A DNA stretch of 64,000 nucleotides, from IMG/VR virus record IMGVR_UViG_3300035703_000042, positions 31,021-95,020 of that record. One strand, 5' to 3'. This document shows, piece by piece, positions 1,889 to 38,707 of this stretch (position 1 is its first letter; every line of letters begins with the position of its first letter). Under the pieces are notes generated by a model. The model had not been told where the DNA came from and searched no databases. It was given only the letters and a program-made list of their open reading frames with translations. The DNA comes from a virus. The translations under genes were made by a program, and so were the position numbers.

Positions 1889-2491
1889 ATGAAAAACAAG
1901 TATGGAATCAAAAAACAGTGCCTACATTGCGGAGAAGAATTTATAACGAAACTTAGGCTAGTTGACTATTGTTCTCAGCCCTGTAAGAACCCTAACAACA
2001 GACCAGGTCATATTCCCTGGAACAAAGGTAAGACATTAACTCAAGAACAAAAAGCAAAACAAAATACAACAGGGTTAACAAAAGGTCGGGGATGGAACAA
2101 AGGACTCCCTAATGAACTTGCTCGAAAAAGATTTTTAGAGAATAATCCAAATAAAGACGGACGAGTTAACAATCTAAGACCTAAAAATTATATAGATGAT
2201 GAGTTTTCTGCTTATAAGAGAGAATGTCGTAAAGCCACTTATAGAAGTGTTTATCAGATGAAGAAGGAAGGACTGGTGCCTGAGAATACTGGTAAAAGAA
2301 AAAACCAGTACCAGTTAGATCACATAATTCCGTTTAGACAAGGTTATGAACTTGGGATAGATCCCCGACTCATTGGGAGCAGACAAAATCTGCGTTACAT
2401 CTTAGGCGAAGAAAATAGATCGAAGTGGGATCGTTTTCAGCCCGACGATGTTTTAAAATCAGTTATAGGAGACAATCATGGCTTACAGTAA
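1889..2491 (+). CDS. HNH homing endonuclease
   Basis: A 200-residue protein with an N-terminal zinc-finger-like pair (CLHC ... CSQPC), Lys/Asn-rich HIPWNKGK and GRGWNKG linkers typical of NUMOD-type DNA-binding modules, and a C-terminal nuclease motif LDHIIPFRQGYELGIDPRLI followed by NLRYI and SKWD, matching the HNH fold of phage free-standing homing endonucleases. The gene is AT-richer than its neighbours, as expected for a recent mobile insertion. Its last 14 bases overlap the start of iscU and contain the iscU ribosome binding site. It may be responsible for the 7-base insertion in iscU. Confidence 0.85.
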   Translation: MKNKYGIKKQCLHCGEEFITKLRLVDYCSQPCKNPNNRPGHIPWNKGKTLTQEQKAKQNTTGLTKGRGWNKGLPNELARKRFLENNPNKDGRVNNLRPKNYIDDEFSAYKRECRKATYRSVYQMKKEGLVPENTGKRKNQYQLDHIIPFRQGYELGIDPRLIGSRQNLRYILGEENRSKWDRFQPDDVLKSVIGDNHGLQ

Positions 2492-2874
2492 GGCCGTTAT
2501 TGATCATTATGAGAACCCGCGTAATGTGGGTTCGTTTGACAAAGGAGATACGCACGTTGGGACCGGTATGGTTGGCGCCCCAGCGTGCGGATGACGGAGA
2601 CGTCATGAAACTACAGATCAAGGTCAATGAAGATGGCATCATCGAAGACGCGAGGTTTAAAACTTACGGCTGCGGATCAGCCATTGCCTCCAGCAGTCTT
2701 GTCACCGAGTGGGTCAAAGGCAAGACACTCGACGAGGCAGCAACTATCAAGAACACAGCGATCGCCCAAGAGCTCGCTCTTCCGCCTGTTAAAATCCATT
2801 GCTCAATACTGGCTGAAGATGCCATCAAAGCAGCCATAGAAGACTACAGGAACAAACATGGCCACGCCAATTGA
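2478..2874 (+). CDS. iscU: Iron-sulfur cluster scaffold IscU, interrupted by a 7-base insertion with in-frame UGA
   Basis: The ATG at 2478 follows AGGAG at 2467-2471. The product starts MAYSKAVIDHYENPRNVGSF and is very close to bacterial IscU along its whole length, including three conserved cysteines (APACG, YGCGS, IHCSI) and the LPPVK motif recognised by HscA. IscU is the scaffold on which IscS sulfur and iron are assembled into [2Fe-2S] clusters. After the codons for ...APACG (GGA at 2589-2591) comes UGA (2592-2594), then C, then a second GGA (2596-2598), after which GAC GTC ATG continues the conserved sequence in the +1 frame. Skipping the 7 bases restores a normal 129-residue IscU exactly; plain termination would give 38 residues. 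A hairpin (stem TGACG/CGTCA, loop GAGA) starts at the UGA. It is either an indel, a broken gene or a bypass site. Confidence 0.85.
2589..2606 (+). promoter_or_regulatory. Candidate ribosome-bypass site in iscU
   Basis: Order of elements: GGA (2589-2591), UGA stop (2592-2594), C, GGA (2596-2598), then the normal frame. A hairpin with stem ATGACG (2591-2596) and CGTCAT (2601-2606) and loop GAGA encloses the stop codon. Matched GGA codons, a stop right after the first, and a tetraloop hairpin at the stop are the features of the T4 gene 60 bypass, though there the gap is 50 bases. No functional evidence can be seen here. Confidence 0.35.
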
Positions 2875-3073
2875 AACAGTGATATTGTGGGCATTGATCA
2901 TCAGCGGTGAACCGCGTGTGCAAGAAGTCTATCGCACCGAAGAGCCGTGTGTGCGTGCTGCGAGATCGCATCGTGCTCAAGGAACTTTCGCTTACTGCAT
3001 GCCCACTAATCAGTTCACGGTTGAAACTAGCACGCATCAACTTCGCAGCCTGGGAGTATTGTTGAATGATTGA
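2858..3073 (+). CDS. Hypothetical protein between iscU and iscA, 71 aa
   Basis: The ATG at 2858 lies inside the end of iscU (17-base overlap) and the stop runs 8 bases into iscA, so the three genes form one tightly coupled unit. The product has a short hydrophobic N-terminus (TVILWALIISG) and two cysteines (EPCVRA, AYCMP). I do not recognise it. Position suggests, but does not prove, a role alongside iron-sulfur assembly. Confidence 0.65.
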   Translation: MATPIETVILWALIISGEPRVQEVYRTEEPCVRAARSHRAQGTFAYCMPTNQFTVETSTHQLRSLGVLLND

Positions 3074-3395
3074 GATCACCGACACAGCCGCAGAGCGAGT
3101 ACAGCAGGCCATCCAACGACGTGGTCGAGGCGTAGGTATCAAGATTGGCGTAAGAACCACCGGGTGTTCGGGACTGGCCTATACCTTGGAATTTGTTGAT
3201 ACGGCACCAGACACTCAACAAGGCATAGAACACTACGACATCAAAGGTGTTGGCGTTTTTGTCAACACCGAGCACTGTGTGTATTTGCAAGGCATGACCA
3301 TCGACTATCAGCGCCGGGGTCTCAACGAAGGCTTCGAATTCATTAACCCCAACGAAAAAGACCGCTGCGGTTGCGGCGAAAGTTTCCGAGTTTGA
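3066..3395 (+). CDS. iscA: A-type iron-sulfur carrier IscA
   Basis: At 109 residues it is the normal length for IscA/HesB proteins, which accept clusters or iron and pass them to target proteins. The three ligand cysteines are present: TTGCSG near residue 37 and CGCGES near the C-terminus. The conserved GLNEGF and NPN segments precede the CGCGES motif. It follows iscU and a small gene with overlaps on both sides. No iscS, hscA or hscB is visible, so host partners would be needed. Confidence 0.93.
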   Translation: MIEITDTAAERVQQAIQRRGRGVGIKIGVRTTGCSGLAYTLEFVDTAPDTQQGIEHYDIKGVGVFVNTEHCVYLQGMTIDYQRRGLNEGFEFINPNEKDRCGCGESFRV

Positions 3396-17018: not shown

Positions 17019-18446
17019 ATGTATCTAACTTACATCATGTTGCTGGTGGCTCTTTGCCTGTCAGCAGTGGCCGCATTTTACAGCATAGTGGGACTCACAG
17101 CCATTTTTGCCGCTGCTGCTGTGCCCATCGTCATCATGGGATCCATCTTGGAAGTGGCCAAGCTGGTGGTCACGGTTTGGTTGCACGAATACTGGCGCGA
17201 TATCAAATTCTCAATGAAGGCATATTTGGTACCAGCAGTGGCCATACTCATGCTGATCACCAGCATGGGAATCTTTGGGTTCTTGAGCAAGGCGCACTTG
17301 GATCAAACCGTGCCCACTGGCGACGTGGCCGCTCAAGTGGCCATCATTGATGAAAAGATCAACAACGAGCGCGATACCATAGCCAATGCCCGGGCATTGC
17401 TGACACAGTTGGATCAAGCCGTGAACAACATTGGTGCCGCACCTGATCGTGAAGTGAATGGCCGCGTGGTATCATCGGCCGAACGTGCCTTGCAGGTGCG
17501 TCGCCAGCAGGCTCGTGATCGTGCAAATCTCACTGAAACCATCGAAGCTGCACAGGCCCGTATCATAAAATTGCAGGAAGAAAAGGCTCCTTTTGCCAAG
17601 GAGCTGAGAAAAGTCGAGGCCGAAGTTGGTCCCATCAAATACATCGCTGCCTTGATCTACGGCGACGATGCCACCGACATCAATCTCTTGGAACGAGCCG
17701 TGAGATGGGTGATCATAATCTTGGTCTTGGTGTTTGATCCCTTGGCTGTGATGATGCTGTTGGCCGCCACCGAAAGTCGTCGCTGGGAACTGGAACGACG
17801 TCGTCGATTGGCCACAGAACACGTATTGCCTGACACTGCCGGAGAAACGAACGATGAATCAGATCATGCCCATGTTGATCACACGCCTGTGGTTGAACCA
17901 CCTCGAGGAGATGTTGACCCTGACCCTGCCGTGGCTGACGCCGTGGATACAGGACCAGGACCAGGACCCACTATGGTGGAACCGCAGCTTGAACCAGATC
18001 ATGACATTGACGAGGATGATGACGACGATGCCGACGACGAACCGATCAAGCAGTCCAAGCGTTTGTGGAAACTAGATAACCCAGACAAAACTATCAAGGA
18101 ACAGCGACGCCTTTATGAATTGGGGAAAATCGATCATCTCCCGTGGTTGGACTATCTAGAAAGAGACGAGATAACCAGTGAATTCGGCACAGAATTTCCA
18201 GTATCGGCCATCAAAGGCGATCTGTTTGTGATGATCAATCAGGTTCCTACTTCGCTTTACAAATACAATGGCATCAAGTGGATACAGATTGACAAAAACA
18301 TCACAGATCGCTATGCTTATAATTCAGCTTACATCGACTATTTGATTGCCAAGATTAGTACCGGCGAATACGACCCCGATTTGCTCAGCGACGGCGAACG
18401 GGCACAACTTGAATCTCGACTCAGACAAGACTTGATCAATGAATGA
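17019..18446 (+). CDS. Membrane protein with periplasmic coiled coil, conserved in aquatic phages
   Basis: A 475-residue protein. Two or three N-terminal membrane helices (to about residue 90: [47 protein letters not shown]) are followed by a long coiled coil (~100-205), another membrane helix ([19 protein letters not shown]), a very acidic Asp/Pro linker and a C-terminal domain. The first 250 residues follow a pattern ([19 protein letters not shown]) common in T4-like aquatic phages, usually labelled structural or hypothetical. Biological role unknown. It overlaps clpX by 8 bases. Confidence 0.8.
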
Positions 18447-19638
18447 ACCCACCCAATGCTGTAGTTTTTGTGGCAAACCCAAAGACCTTGTAGGAAAACT
18501 CATAGTCAGCGACTCAGTGGCTATCTGTAATGAGTGTGTGGCTTTGTGCGAAGAGTTACTAGCGGATTCCCCTGGCAGTGTCATCACCGATCTCGACGAT
18601 GATAAAATGGATCCTATGCGACTCAAGGATTTCTTGGACGAATATGTGATCGGTCAAGATCAAGCCAAGATCATGCTCAGTGTAGCGATCGTAAATCATT
18701 ACAAACGCATACAAAATACCAGCAACAAAGAGATCTCCAAGGCCAATGTGTTGATGCTGGGACCTACCGGGTCGGGCAAGACTCTCCTGGCACAGACAGT
18801 GGCGCGATATCTAGATGTGCCTTTTGCTATCGCAGATGCTACCAGCCTCACCGAAGCAGGTTATGTAGGCGACGACGTGGAAAGTCTGATCGGGCGTTTG
18901 TATGCCAACTCCGGCAATGATGTGGCTCGTACACAGCGCGGTATCGTATTTGTGGACGAAATTGACAAGATCGCACGCAAGAGCGAAAATGCATCAATCA
19001 CTCGAGACGTGTCAGGCGAAGGCGTACAGCAAGCCTTGCTCAAGCTAGTAGAAGGAACTGTTTGTCGAGTACCCGTGAGTGGGGGGCGCAAGCATCCCAC
19101 TGGTGACATGGTCGAAGTTGACACACGAAACATATTGTTTATTGCCGGTGGTGCTTTTGTGGGATTGGAAAAAATTATCAGCAATCGATTATCGGGCACC
19201 AGCATCGGATTCAACAGCCTGGTAAAACAAAAACAGCAAGTCGATCTATCAATGAGCACACCCGACGATCTTGTGAGATTTGGTCTCATTCCTGAATTGA
19301 TTGGTCGTTTCGCCAGCGTGGTGTCACTGCGAGAATTGGAAAAATCAGATCTCATGCGCGTTTTCACCGAAGTTAAAAACAACTATGTGGACCAGTATTG
19401 TTGGTTGTTTCAACAAGACGGTGTGGACTTACATATCTCACAAGATGCTTTGGAAGGCATGGTTGATCGTGCTATCAAATCAGGCACAGGCGCCCGTGCT
19501 TTACACAGCGAGATAGAACGAGCCCTGATGCCGCACATGTTTTATATCAAGAAGTATATATCGCTGGGGATCAAAAGCATCGACATCACTGCGGATCTGG
19601 TAAATAATCCGCGTTCGATACAGGAGACGTCACATTGA
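18439..19638 (+). CDS. clpX: ClpX, ATP-dependent unfoldase of the Clp protease
   Basis: A full-length 399-residue ClpX. Near the N-terminus CCSFCGK and CNECVALC form the zinc-binding domain that dimerises and recruits adaptors. The AAA+ core has Walker A GPTGSGKT and Walker B VFVDEIDK, a VEGT segment, a sensor region ([10 protein letters not shown]) and a C-terminal small domain. ClpX unfolds tagged proteins and feeds them to ClpP; matching clpP genes lie at 36.4 and 38.1 kb. A phage copy suggests redirected host or phage proteolysis. Confidence 0.97.
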
Positions 19639-29303: not shown

Positions 29304-29325
29304 CAACTACAGATTGGTGACCGTT

Positions 29326-30402
29326 ATGTCTGTTCCGCGTGTGGGTTTCTGTTGCAAATGGCTCACTGACCCCGCAGAGTGCGGCGGTATGAAAGTAAAT
29401 GCTGCCAATCGTGAACTCAATGGACGTAGCACCACCATGCGCTGGTTGCGCGAGCATCGCGACCAAGCCGAGCAGCGACAGTGGGACATCATGAATCACA
29501 ACGCCGCTGCCGCACTGCGCATGGTCGAGACCGTGGGTGCCTTGCCCGAGACTTTGAGGATGGTTCGCTTAGGATCAGAAATGCTGCAAGGATATACCGA
29601 AGGAGACTGGCAAGCGTGGTGGCAACGCCGAGAAATCCAAGACCATTGCGAACGGATTTTTGCCCCCATTGGTGAAGCTGCACGACGCTTGGGTGTAAGG
29701 CTCAGCTTCCATCCTGGTCAGTTCTGTGTGCTGGCATCCGAGAGCGACGACATCGTAAATAGAAGCATAGAGGAGTTTGAATATCATGCAGATATGGCCA
29801 GGTGGATGGGGTATGGACGCGAGTTCCAGGACTTTAAAATCAACGTCCACATATCGGGTAGAAAAGGTCCAGCCGGTATCAAAAGCGTCCTTGGGCGTCT
29901 CTCACCAGAGGCGCGAAATTGTATCACCATCGAAAACGACGAAATGTCCTGGGGACTCGACGCCAGCCTCGAACTGGTCGACGATCTCGCTCTGGTGCTA
30001 GACATCCACCATCACTTCGTTAAAACCGGTGAGTATATTCGATCCTCGGATGACCGAATTAAACGTGTTCGAGACAGTTGGCGTGGACGTCGACCGGTTA
30101 TACACTATAGTCAGAGTCGAGAAGATGTGCTAGTAGGGCACGATCCTGACGTATTGCCAGACATGGAGTTGTTGCTAAGCCAAGGACATAAAAAGGCCCG
30201 TCTCCGTGCTCATTCAGACTTTATGTGGAATCAGGCCTGTAATCGATGGGCCATGGAACACTGGGAATGGGCCGACATACAAGTGGAGGCTAAGGGTAAA
30301 AATCTAGCACGGGACCAACTATTTCAATTCTGGAAAAATCTCAAAGAACCCATGACTACGATTCTTGAGACGAAAACAGATTCCTCGTCCGATATTCAGT
30401 AG
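29326..30402 (+). CDS. uvsE: UV damage endonuclease UvsE (UvdE family)
   Basis: I choose ATG 29326 (358 residues); TTG/GTG codons lie just upstream. The TIM-barrel repair enzyme motifs are visible: RVGFCCKW at the N-terminus, LSFHPGQFCVL, NVHISG, TIENDEMSWG, VLDIHHHF, and a final RLRAHSDFMW with metal-binding His/Glu/Asp. UvsE nicks DNA beside UV photoproducts. The 3' end overlaps the GIY-YIG gene on the other strand by 84 bases. Confidence 0.92.
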   Translation: MSVPRVGFCCKWLTDPAECGGMKVNAANRELNGRSTTMRWLREHRDQAEQRQWDIMNHNAAAALRMVETVGALPETLRMVRLGSEMLQGYTEGDWQAWWQRREIQDHCERIFAPIGEAARRLGVRLSFHPGQFCVLASESDDIVNRSIEEFEYHADMARWMGYGREFQDFKINVHISGRKGPAGIKSVLGRLSPEARNCITIENDEMSWGLDASLELVDDLALVLDIHHHFVKTGEYIRSSDDRIKRVRDSWRGRRPVIHYSQSREDVLVGHDPDVLPDMELLLSQGHKKARLRAHSDFMWNQACNRWAMEHWEWADIQVEAKGKNLARDQLFQFWKNLKEPMTTILETKTDSSSDIQ

Positions 30403-30954
30403 ATTACTAACATCAGTGACTGATTGGCCTTGGTTCATTAGATCTATGGCCTGTTTGAACTTGTTATAGTTTTTGGTATTTTTCCCGCGTAAGACAGCTA
30501 GCCGCCTTTCTTGAGTGCAAGGAATTTTTTGACCGTACATTGGATTTTTAGAACCTATTTTTGATTCTGACAGTTTTTTGCGCCATTGATCTGTTCTTGG
30601 AATTCCTCGAAGCTTGGCACTTCGTTTATTGAGAGTTAAGGTGTTTGGTTTCCATCCGATCTTAGACGGCGGTCTAGAATCTGCAACTATATTAGAGAGA
30701 TGGATCAGCCCAATATTTTCAATTAGTAACTTTTCATACTCGTAGGCTTCAACCTCTGTAGCAAAATGTTTTATGATTTCAACTATTACCTCTAGCCCAT
30801 CTTGATGTATTTTATTGATGATTCGATCTTTGTGAGGATTTTGATTACCATCTTTGAAGCAACTGTGTGTAAATGCTCTATTTCCCGATCCCTTGCCAAT
30901 ATAAAAAGGTGTATTTGATCTTGGATCTATTAATTGATAGACATAGTATTTCAT
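30319..30954 (-). CDS. GIY-YIG homing endonuclease
   Basis: ATG 30954 gives 211 residues beginning MKYYVYQLIDPR; the GIY-YIG core reads YYVYQL ... PFYIGKGSGNR, with the conserved Arg following and the catalytic Glu in YEYEKLLIENIG. A NUMOD3-type KNPMYGQK motif and a C-terminal helix-turn-helix (SVTDVSNLLNIGRGI) bind DNA. The gene is AT-rich and antisense to the end of uvsE, typical of a mobile free-standing homing endonuclease. Confidence 0.9.
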   Translation of the reverse strand: MKYYVYQLIDPRSNTPFYIGKGSGNRAFTHSCFKDGNQNPHKDRIINKIHQDGLEVIVEIIKHFATEVEAYEYEKLLIENIGLIHLSNIVADSRPPSKIGWKPNTLTLNKRSAKLRGIPRTDQWRKKLSESKIGSKNPMYGQKIPCTQERRLAVLRGKNTKNYNKFKQAIDLMNQGQSVTDVSNLLNIGRGICFRLKNRSHGFFEIFPELK

Positions 30955-30962
30955 AGCATTTT

Positions 30963-30968
30963 TATTTA
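30963..30968 (-). promoter_or_regulatory. Late promoter box before the GIY-YIG gene
   Basis: GATAAATA on the minus strand, 8 bases from the ATG at 30954. No Shine-Dalgarno is present. Confidence 0.45.
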
Positions 30969-30985
30969 TCACAACGGTATTAGAT

Positions 30986-31306
30986 ATGCACCATCTTCAA
31001 AAATTTCATGACATGATTGACAGTGTATTCCGACCAACCCTAGAATGGATCCGCAATGACTACCGCGTTTACCCTTTTCGTTTCTGTGTCGAAGTGGTGG
31101 CTTGGGCTCTCAGCATTGGTTGTAGCCTCGTCATGGCTATTACAGTACCTGAGCCCCCTTTACTCGCTCTATATCCTGCTTGGATACTCGGTTGCGGCCT
31201 TTATGCTTGGGCTGCTTGGGACCGCGGCAGTTTTGGCATGCTTGCCAATTATCTGCTGCTGGTCGCTATTGACACCACAGGACTGATTAGGTTGTTGATT
31301 TCTTAG
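30986..31306 (+). CDS. Small membrane protein, 106 aa
   Basis: After a short cytoplasmic start (LEWIRNDYRVYPFRF) come three membrane segments: FCVEVVAWALSIGCSLVMAI, PLLALYPAWILGCGLYAWAAW and MLANYLLLVAIDTTGLIRLLI. Proteins with this YPFRF...GCGLYAW pattern recur in aquatic T4-like phages and remain uncharacterised. It overlaps the convergent EF-hand gene by 20 bases. Confidence 0.75.
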   Translation: MHHLQKFHDMIDSVFRPTLEWIRNDYRVYPFRFCVEVVAWALSIGCSLVMAITVPEPPLLALYPAWILGCGLYAWAAWDRGSFGMLANYLLLVAIDTTGLIRLLIS

Positions 31307-36363: not shown

Positions 36364-36924
36364 ATGACTGTAGACAAAGAGCTAGAGTATGACAGCGTTG
36401 GTTCGGCCCTGAACGCCCACGGCATGTTTGTTCTCATGGGCGGGATCAACGAAGAAACAGTGAAACCTGCCATTGAATGGATCCTGCACGAAAATCATGT
36501 CAGGAAGCGCAAGAAAAAAGAACTCCTGCTAATGGTGAACTCCGATGGTGGAAATCTCACCGATGCCTTTGCGCTCATCGATGTCATGCGTTCCAGCGTG
36601 ATCCCTGTCAAGACCGTGGGCCTGGGCATAGTGGCATCTGCTGGCTTGTGTATCTTTATCGCGGGTGCCACCGGACGTCGTGTGCTTACTCCAAACACAT
36701 CGATCCTGAGCCATCAGTTTTCTTGGCACAGTTCGGGCAAGGCTCACGAGCTGTTTGCCACTGTGAAAGAGTTTGAGCTCACCCAACAACGGATGTTGAG
36801 ACTCTATCAAGAATGCACATCGCTGGATGACGACCAGATCCGAGAAGTGCTCTTGCCTCCCCAAGACGTTTATCTATCTGCCGCAGAGGCACTTGAATTC
36901 GGAATCTGCGACGCAGTGGCCTAG
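36364..36924 (+). CDS. ClpP-like serine protease (paralogue)
   Basis: 186 residues of the ClpP/S14 fold. The nucleophile Ser is in GIVASAGLCI, the His in ILSHQFS and a likely Asp in LPPQDVYLSAAEAL. It differs considerably from canonical ClpP, including an N-terminal tail (ELEYDSVGSALNAHGMFVL) unlike the usual processed propeptide. Phages often carry such divergent ClpP-like genes, sometimes for capsid maturation; here a canonical ClpP also exists at 38102. It overlaps the convergent minus-strand gene by four bases. Confidence 0.85.
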   Translation: MTVDKELEYDSVGSALNAHGMFVLMGGINEETVKPAIEWILHENHVRKRKKKELLLMVNSDGGNLTDAFALIDVMRSSVIPVKTVGLGIVASAGLCIFIAGATGRRVLTPNTSILSHQFSWHSSGKAHELFATVKEFELTQQRMLRLYQECTSLDDDQIREVLLPPQDVYLSAAEALEFGICDAVA

Positions 36925-38073: not shown

Positions 38074-38076
38074 TAT
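38070..38076 (-). promoter_or_regulatory. Late box for the minus-strand 373-aa gene, overlapping the clpP -10
   Basis: ATAAGTA read on the minus strand, 27 bases before the ATG at 38042. It shares bases with the plus-strand -10 of clpP, so the two transcripts start back to back. Confidence 0.45.
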
Positions 38077-38101
38077 GCTTGATCACACCCAAGGAGAACT
38101 C

Positions 38102-38707
38102 ATGCCCAATCTAGTGCCCATCGTGCTGGAACACACCAGCAAAGGCGAACGCAGCTATGACATCTACAGTCGACTGCTCCGAGACCGAATCATCATGCTA
38201 GATACCGAAGTGTCCAGCCACAGCGCCAGCTTGATCGTAGCGCAGATGTTGTTCCTGGAAAGTGAAAATCCCGAACGACCCGTGTACTTTTACATCAACT
38301 CTCCGGGCGGTTCGGTCACAGCCGGAATGAGCATCTATGACACCATGCAGTTCATCCGCTGTCCCATCCACACCATCGTCATGGGGCAAGCAGCAAGCAT
38401 GGGCAGTCTCTTGGCCATGGCCGGAGAACCGGGTCATAGATTCATATTGCCCAATGCTCGTCACATGATCCACCAACCCCTGGGCGGAGCATCGGGACAG
38501 GCCACTGACGTGGAAATCCAGGCACGCGAACTGCTGAGATGGAAAGATGTATTGACCGGTATCTACGTACGACACACCGGGCGCGATCGTGATCAGCTAC
38601 GTGCTGACATGGAACGCGACAATTTTATGACTGCTGAACAGGCTGTGGCTTATGGTCTGGCCGATCAAGTGATCTCAAAACGCGATGATCAAAGCATGAC
38701 TTCGTGA
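38102..38707 (+). CDS. clpP: ClpP, canonical proteolytic subunit
   Basis: ATG 38102 with CAAGGAG upstream gives 201 residues close to bacterial ClpP. It starts [20 protein letters not shown] (cleaved propeptide region), has the nucleophile in MGQAASMGS, the His in [11 protein letters not shown] and the Asp in ERDNFM-type region, with the [13 protein letters not shown] substrate-binding loop. Together with the phage clpX it could form a complete ClpXP protease. The next gene on the opposite strand overlaps its end by 19 bases. Confidence 0.96.

Follow-up and report, generated by a model that had tools for sequence, protein, structure and literature searches.

A conserved hairpin beside stop-bearing inserts in phage iscU genes points strongly to ribosomes hopping across the insert

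The interrupted iscU gene and its insert family

The iron-sulfur protein gene iscU of the virus record IMGVR_UViG_3300035703_000042 (95,020 bp) was analysed within a window of 64,000 nucleotides (nt), positions 31,021 to 95,020 of that record, and is interrupted between the codons for Gly38 and Asp39 by seven nucleotides that begin with a stop codon. All features of this locus lie on the plus strand. The first open reading frame (ORF1, 2478-2594) encodes the 38 residues MAYSKAVIDHYENPRNVGSFDKGDTHVGTGMVGAPACG, ending in ACG at a TGA, and the second (ORF2, 2599-2874), which is in frame +1 relative to ORF1 and starts GAC GTC ATG, runs from Asp39 to the end of the protein (DVMKLQ...HGHAN). The Gly38 codon GGA (2589-2591), here called the take-off codon, is followed by the insert TGACGGA (2592-2598), the putative bypassed gap, which consists of TGA (2592-2594), a single C (2595) and the landing codon GGA (2596-2598). 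An earlier note on this DNA had read the order GGA, TGA, C, GGA followed by the canonical DVMK frame, and this reading holds at 2589-2598, with the joined halves giving an IscU of 38+91 = 129 residues. Both halves match the NifU_N/IscU profile (PF01592), and the C-terminal half (C-half) also matches TIGR01999; the conserved Cys, Asp39 and His-Cys motifs are present. The C-half is closely similar to IscU of the E. coli type; since its best bacterial matches are mostly from Betaproteobacteria, the host of the phage may be a betaproteobacterium.

The search of related phages for the same element that the earlier note had proposed returned the exact pattern GGN-TGA-C-GGN in at least 17 other viral contigs, which argues against an assembly error. 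The allele set was built from IMG/VR by a scan for the exact element, by wider scans, and by a scan requiring only features 5′ of the insert; its totals are lower bounds, and fractions given here refer to the alleles listed. At least 81 non-redundant interrupted alleles with 24 insert types were recovered, and every insert lies exactly at the Gly38/Asp39 codon junction. Insert lengths are 7 nt (45 alleles), 9 nt (17), 8 nt (11), 10 nt (5), 6 nt (2) and 4 nt (1), and thus cover all three reading frames. The insert starts with TGA, TAG or TAA in 75 of 81 alleles and ends in GGN in 80, as in TGACGGA, TGAGGGC and TAACGGA after the take-off codons GGA, GGC and GGT, respectively, or TGACAGGT after GGA, TAGTTAGGT after GGT and TGAATTAGGT after GGC. 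Alleles in which the insert keeps the frame carry a stop (GGT TAG GGC and GGT TAG TTA GGT), and no in-frame sense insert was seen among the insert alleles listed. The matched take-off and landing codons described by the earlier note are both GGA in the window; across the family only the GG is shared (80/81), and the wobble base often differs.

As the insert was found again in dozens of other contigs, it is neither a chance event nor an assembly error, and the latter was ruled out as the source of the window insert. The insert pattern gave no match in 84,980 bacterial and archaeal genomes; as a control, 80 of 80 fetched bacterial iscU genes fit the search pattern without an insert. No interrupted iscU was found among the cultured phages of INPHARED, and in the fetched loci iscU alone stood out as a gene interrupted by short inserts. 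Loci L142 to L146 were dropped as false positives of the wider scan pattern, and 27 matches in a scan for stem-stop-landing sites elsewhere were set aside as looking like chance or terminators. Inserts also occur in very large viral contigs of 329-525 kb (L117, L083, L110, L135, L155), so the cassette crosses phage size classes. A separate intein-like insertion lies directly 3′ of the catalytic Cys63 of the phage IscU in L124, L224 and L380; L224 and L380 have no Gly38 insert, and L380 retains the stem described below.

The stem-loop and Shine-Dalgarno-like site 5′ of the insert

The more important feature of the locus, which the earlier note missed, is a conserved stem-loop on the 5′ side of the take-off codon. 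In the window an 11-bp stem (2551-2561 paired with 2579-2589) closes a loop of 17 nt, with the last base of the 3′ arm being the first G of the take-off codon, and a Shine-Dalgarno (SD)-like AAAGGAG (2541-2547) lies 3 nt 5′ of the stem. Folding of the 60 nt 5′ of the insert, compared with shuffled sequences, gives a mean z of -3.1 in insert alleles and 0.05 in plain, uninterrupted alleles. For the stem analysis a first set of 39 distinct N-terminal half (N-half) sequences was used. The 11-bp stem, with at least 10 bp formed, is present in 39 of 39 and pairs positions 23-33 with 51-61, reaching the first G of the take-off codon. A stem run of at least 9 bp is found in 81/81 insert alleles, compared with 3/171 plain phage alleles and 0/80 bacterial genes, and 37 of 39 insert N-halves (95%) have AAGGAG at a distance of 3 (or 6) nt on the 5′ side of the stem, compared with 3 of 172 plain (2%) and 2 of 80 bacterial sequences.

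Third codon positions in the stem covary, with CAC opposite GCG, CAA opposite GCT, CAT opposite GCA and CAG opposite GCC, so that all four Watson-Crick pairs occur at one position. Pair counts are CG 19, AU 16, UA 3 and GC 1 at one position and UA 20, CG 8, UG 6, GC 3 and GU 2 at another. The covariation score of 0.295 compares with 0.112 ± 0.013 for shuffled data (reached in 0 of 500) and with at most 0.07 for slid versions. G-U pairs are used at several stem positions, at one of them in 39/39 sequences, which indicates that the stem acts as RNA. The codon before Val is always CAN (His or Gln) in insert alleles because its first two bases pair with the UG in the codon for Cys37, and the RNA has therefore bent the protein sequence; apart from the codons of the SD-like site and the stem, the ORF1 peptide is that of an ordinary IscU. 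The predicted tryptic peptide across the junction, GDTHVGTGMVGAPACGDVMK, bears the His/Gln typical of stem-bearing alleles. By arithmetic, formation of the stem would leave 3-4 nt between the SD-like site and the take-off codon and about 7-13 nt between that site and the landing codon, and an SD at a spacing of 3-4 nt pushes ribosomes forward in RF2 frameshifting (PMC5009743). The presence of this conserved hairpin next to the insert speaks strongly for a jump of the ribosome across the insert.

The earlier note had placed weight on a different hairpin, a 6-bp stem with a GAGA loop at the stop codon (ATGACG-GAGA-CGTCAT, 2591-2606, pairing 2591-2596 with 2601-2606). This hairpin exists and is strong in the window; it is absent from most relatives' alleles, and was rejected as a general take-off signal.

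Endonuclease linkage and mobility of the cassette

An HNH gene immediately upstream of iscU, as the earlier note had it, is present as a candidate free-standing, HNH-like homing endonuclease (1889-2491) that overlaps the iscU start and has a CxxC/CxxxC finger, NKG repeats resembling NUMOD3 and a DHIIP...N...NR..KW motif. The motif is visible in the window protein; the Pfam HNH match is weak (E 0.027, in one relative only), no fold match was found in PDB, and the assignment as a candidate endonuclease draws on motifs and linkage. An endonuclease gene lies upstream in 54 of the 75 insert alleles with enough flank, compared with 2 of 161 plain alleles, and ends about 90-120 nt before the insert. 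The upstream genes comprise homologues of the window HNH-like protein, a second HNH type, GIY-YIG and Vsr-like enzymes, and both plain alleles with an upstream endonuclease carry the second HNH type. In L210 and L390 this second type lies directly 5′ of an iscU that has neither insert nor stem, and in L167 and L169 it accompanies inserts. The endonuclease of L140 shares the zinc-finger/NKG front half of the window protein, but its nuclease domain differs and is Vsr-like.

In the window the endonuclease gene is preceded by a radical SAM gene (947-1849), the counterpart of which directly precedes an uninterrupted iscU in the relative L034, an empty site. Alleles that share an insert type have almost the same N-half DNA, and their C-halves diverge straight after the insert; the inserts are scattered over the C-half tree with 34 changes, at least 11 of them forced. 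Near-identical N-halves, diverged C-halves and scatter over the tree would be expected from homing in which co-conversion stops at a break at Gly38/Asp39, and the cassette evidently moves between diverged iscU backgrounds. Near-identical N-halves bear different inserts in different frames, and the stop and GGN are nevertheless kept; stem and insert are also retained where the endonuclease gene is absent. In L409, a stem-bearing site without an insert and the one such site beside an HNH1 gene, that gene is frameshifted, which reads as an advanced phase of the life cycle typical of such endonucleases.

Elsewhere in the window, an intact gene for an A-type carrier of the IscA/ErpA type follows iscU (3066-3395, plus strand). 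A GIY-YIG endonuclease gene with NUMOD3 (30319-30972, minus strand) overlaps the 3′ end of the gene at 29314-30402, which is UvdE-like by eye, and no interrupted neighbour was seen there. Genes that by eye are ClpX-like (one) and ClpP-like (two) lie at 18439-19638, 36364-36924 and 38075-38707, and no tRNA genes were found in the 64-kb window.

Ribosome bypassing and other explanations of the interrupted gene

The locus is very probably a mobile cassette composed of an endonuclease gene and a micro-bypass module in iscU, in which the ribosome would skip the stop and restore the exact IscU. The homing-associated bypass cassette proposed by the earlier note is supported in sequence by the insert frames, the stop and GGN, the covarying stem, the SD-like site, Asp39-Val40, the alleles with Leu41 and the endonuclease linkage. 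The cassette would comprise the free-standing homing-type endonuclease gene just 5′ of iscU and, within iscU, AAGGAG, 3 or 6 nt, the 11-bp stem-loop, GGN for Gly38, the stop, 0-4 nt and the landing GGN, followed by GAY for Asp39. A ribosome at the take-off GGN would stall with the stop codon in the A site, the peptidyl-tRNA-Gly would release, and the mRNA would slide by 4-10 nt until the tRNA re-pairs, by at least the GG, on the landing GGN. Decoding would then restart at Asp39, with an exact, uninterrupted IscU as the predicted full-length product. The stem-loop, by re-forming behind the ribosome, and the contact between SD and anti-SD probably push the ribosome forward and determine where it lands. 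The insert would lie at the predicted cut site of the endonuclease in iscU, and carriers would thereby be protected. At the level of the family, it is judged probable that bacterial viruses have a set of natural stop-hops of 4-10 nt that work in any frame and are driven by an SD-like site and a stem-loop abutting the take-off codon, and that homing endonucleases of several unrelated kinds, having converged on a single codon junction of iscU, spread them among phages.

Loss of function, the alternative that the earlier note had raised, would have a selfish cassette kill a dispensable iscU and protect itself, leaving both halves as relics. Inserts that look recently moved in many lineages fit this, as does the second lesion of L088 described below. 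It is nevertheless unlikely, as the stop-plus-GGN and the covarying stem are retained while insert length and frame vary, no in-frame sense insert was seen, and additional lesions are nearly absent. The ratio of nonsynonymous to synonymous substitution (dN/dS) of the C-half alone was set aside, because homing moved the inserts recently, and was redone using the divergence of the cassette itself. Where cassette and C-half co-diverged (HNH dS 0.34-1.0; e.g., L109/L115/L117 and L368/L408), the dN/dS of the C-half is about 0.04-0.2, pointing to a gene that still functions. A split gene, in which ORF1 stops and re-initiation at Met41 yields a two-chain IscU in the manner of endonuclease-split phage genes such as nrdA of Aeh1, is very unlikely. 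The stop is near the ATG, an SD-like GGAG precedes the ATG in GGA-landing alleles, functional split genes are known (PMC2988022), and coupling can be helped by an SD close to the end of a gene (PMC5009743). Re-initiation at codon 41 is excluded in 11 of the insert alleles, because that codon is Leu (CTT, CTA or TTA) rather than ATG and the following 30 codons or more contain no in-frame start, except in L408 (GTG at codon 40). Asp39-Val40 would stay untranslated in a split gene, yet is present in every readable allele of a scan with no requirement 3′ of Gly38. The SD before Met41 is weak in GGC- and GGT-landing alleles, close to the level of uninterrupted genes, and in two insert types without an immediate stop ORF1 continues past Met41.

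An ordinary RF2-like +1 frameshift at GGN-UGA, which would add two residues (CG-xG-DVMK), suits the 7-nt inserts and their UGAC context, and with the stem looped out the SD would lie 3 nt from the shift codon, as in RF2 (PMC5009743). It is rendered extremely improbable by the 6- and 9-nt inserts, which are in frame 0 with a stop, by the 8-nt inserts, which require another shift, by the poor +1 re-pairing of the Gly tRNA, and by uninterrupted IscU, in which extra residues are never present at the junction in the phage and bacterial alleles compared. Since inserts come in all three frames, no single fixed shift can serve. Stop read-through or a recoded TAG was rejected, because TAG, TGA and TAA all serve as genuine stops in the phages concerned and the majority of inserts break the frame. 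That the inverted repeat works as DNA, as a mobile-element end or nuclease landmark, with the gene expressed otherwise, would suit its location at the right boundary of the cassette; the G-U pairs and the retention of the repeat with the insert where the endonuclease is absent make this scarcely credible. A hop onto the GGN before Asp39 thus appears to be the only reading that serves nearly all alleles, L131 being the exception.

Several observations weigh against bypassing. Mismatched wobble bases at take-off and landing (GGA..GGT, GGT..GGA) would require two-out-of-three pairing by one tRNA in about a third of alleles, and 6 of the non-redundant alleles listed have no immediate stop. The L131 insert, TGTTGAC, has no landing GGN, though the stem and SD-like site are present, and is possibly a broken or differently landing allele. 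In L088 a further insert with a stop (TAACTA) lies between ...LPP and VKIHC, beside the conserved His-Cys motif, and this iscU may be decaying. The 3′ arm of the stem would be inside the ribosome when the take-off codon is in the P site, and a role of the stem in timing is a guess. Allele counts overstate independence because alleles are related by homing, and fall into about 24 N-half families.

Among the closest known systems is T4 gene 60 with the HNH gene mobA, which shares Gly GGN take-off and landing codons, a stop immediately behind the take-off codon, a stem-loop on the 5′ side, an SD-like element, an upstream HNH gene, an out-of-frame insert in a coding gene and proposed nuclease protection (PMC5009743, PMC11194080, PMC2988022). 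The iscU family has the stop directly 3′ of take-off (TGA in the window), the 5′ stem-loop, the linked adjacent endonuclease gene and mobility with co-conversion; most alleles lack a tetraloop take-off hairpin at the stop. The gap of gene 60 is 50 nt and that of iscU 4-10 nt, with many variants in all frames, and in the iscU module the stem abuts the take-off codon, the SD is 5′ of the stem and no take-off hairpin is conserved. The target here is iscU rather than a topoisomerase, and a nascent-peptide signal is not evident. The byp elements of Magnusiomyces capitatus mitochondria are likewise numerous inserts neutralised by bypassing, with imperfectly matched codons tolerated (PMC5009743), whereas the iscU case involves phages, bacterial ribosomes, a single site in one gene, shorter gaps and a dedicated stem-loop. 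In E. coli, synthetic stop-hops have a stop flanked by matched codons, and the in-frame iscU alleles follow the same logic but would be natural; no natural in-frame stop-hop is known according to a review, in which short counterparts had long been expected (PMC5009743). RF2 (prfB) frameshifting shares the SD-like site, a stop that is often UGA-C and forward movement; in iscU, unlike RF2, the landing is non-overlapping, 4-10 nt away and in any frame, with a stem-loop between SD and take-off. No report of such a bypass for iscU was found in the literature, and other phage bypass candidates are the terminase of Streptomyces phage Hau3 and the tape-measure gene of Corndog, which is also beside an HNH gene (PMC4351075).

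T4 gene 60 has until now been nearly the sole case of bypassing in phages. If true, the iscU inserts would form a large family of short natural stop-hops, the first of its kind, travelling with homing endonucleases, and their dozens of natural variants in gap, stop, frame and stem would provide a ready-made mutational series for the minimal requirements of bypassing. They would also be a second, independent case of an endonuclease travelling with a recoding site that neutralises its insert, and such a link may therefore be a general rule.
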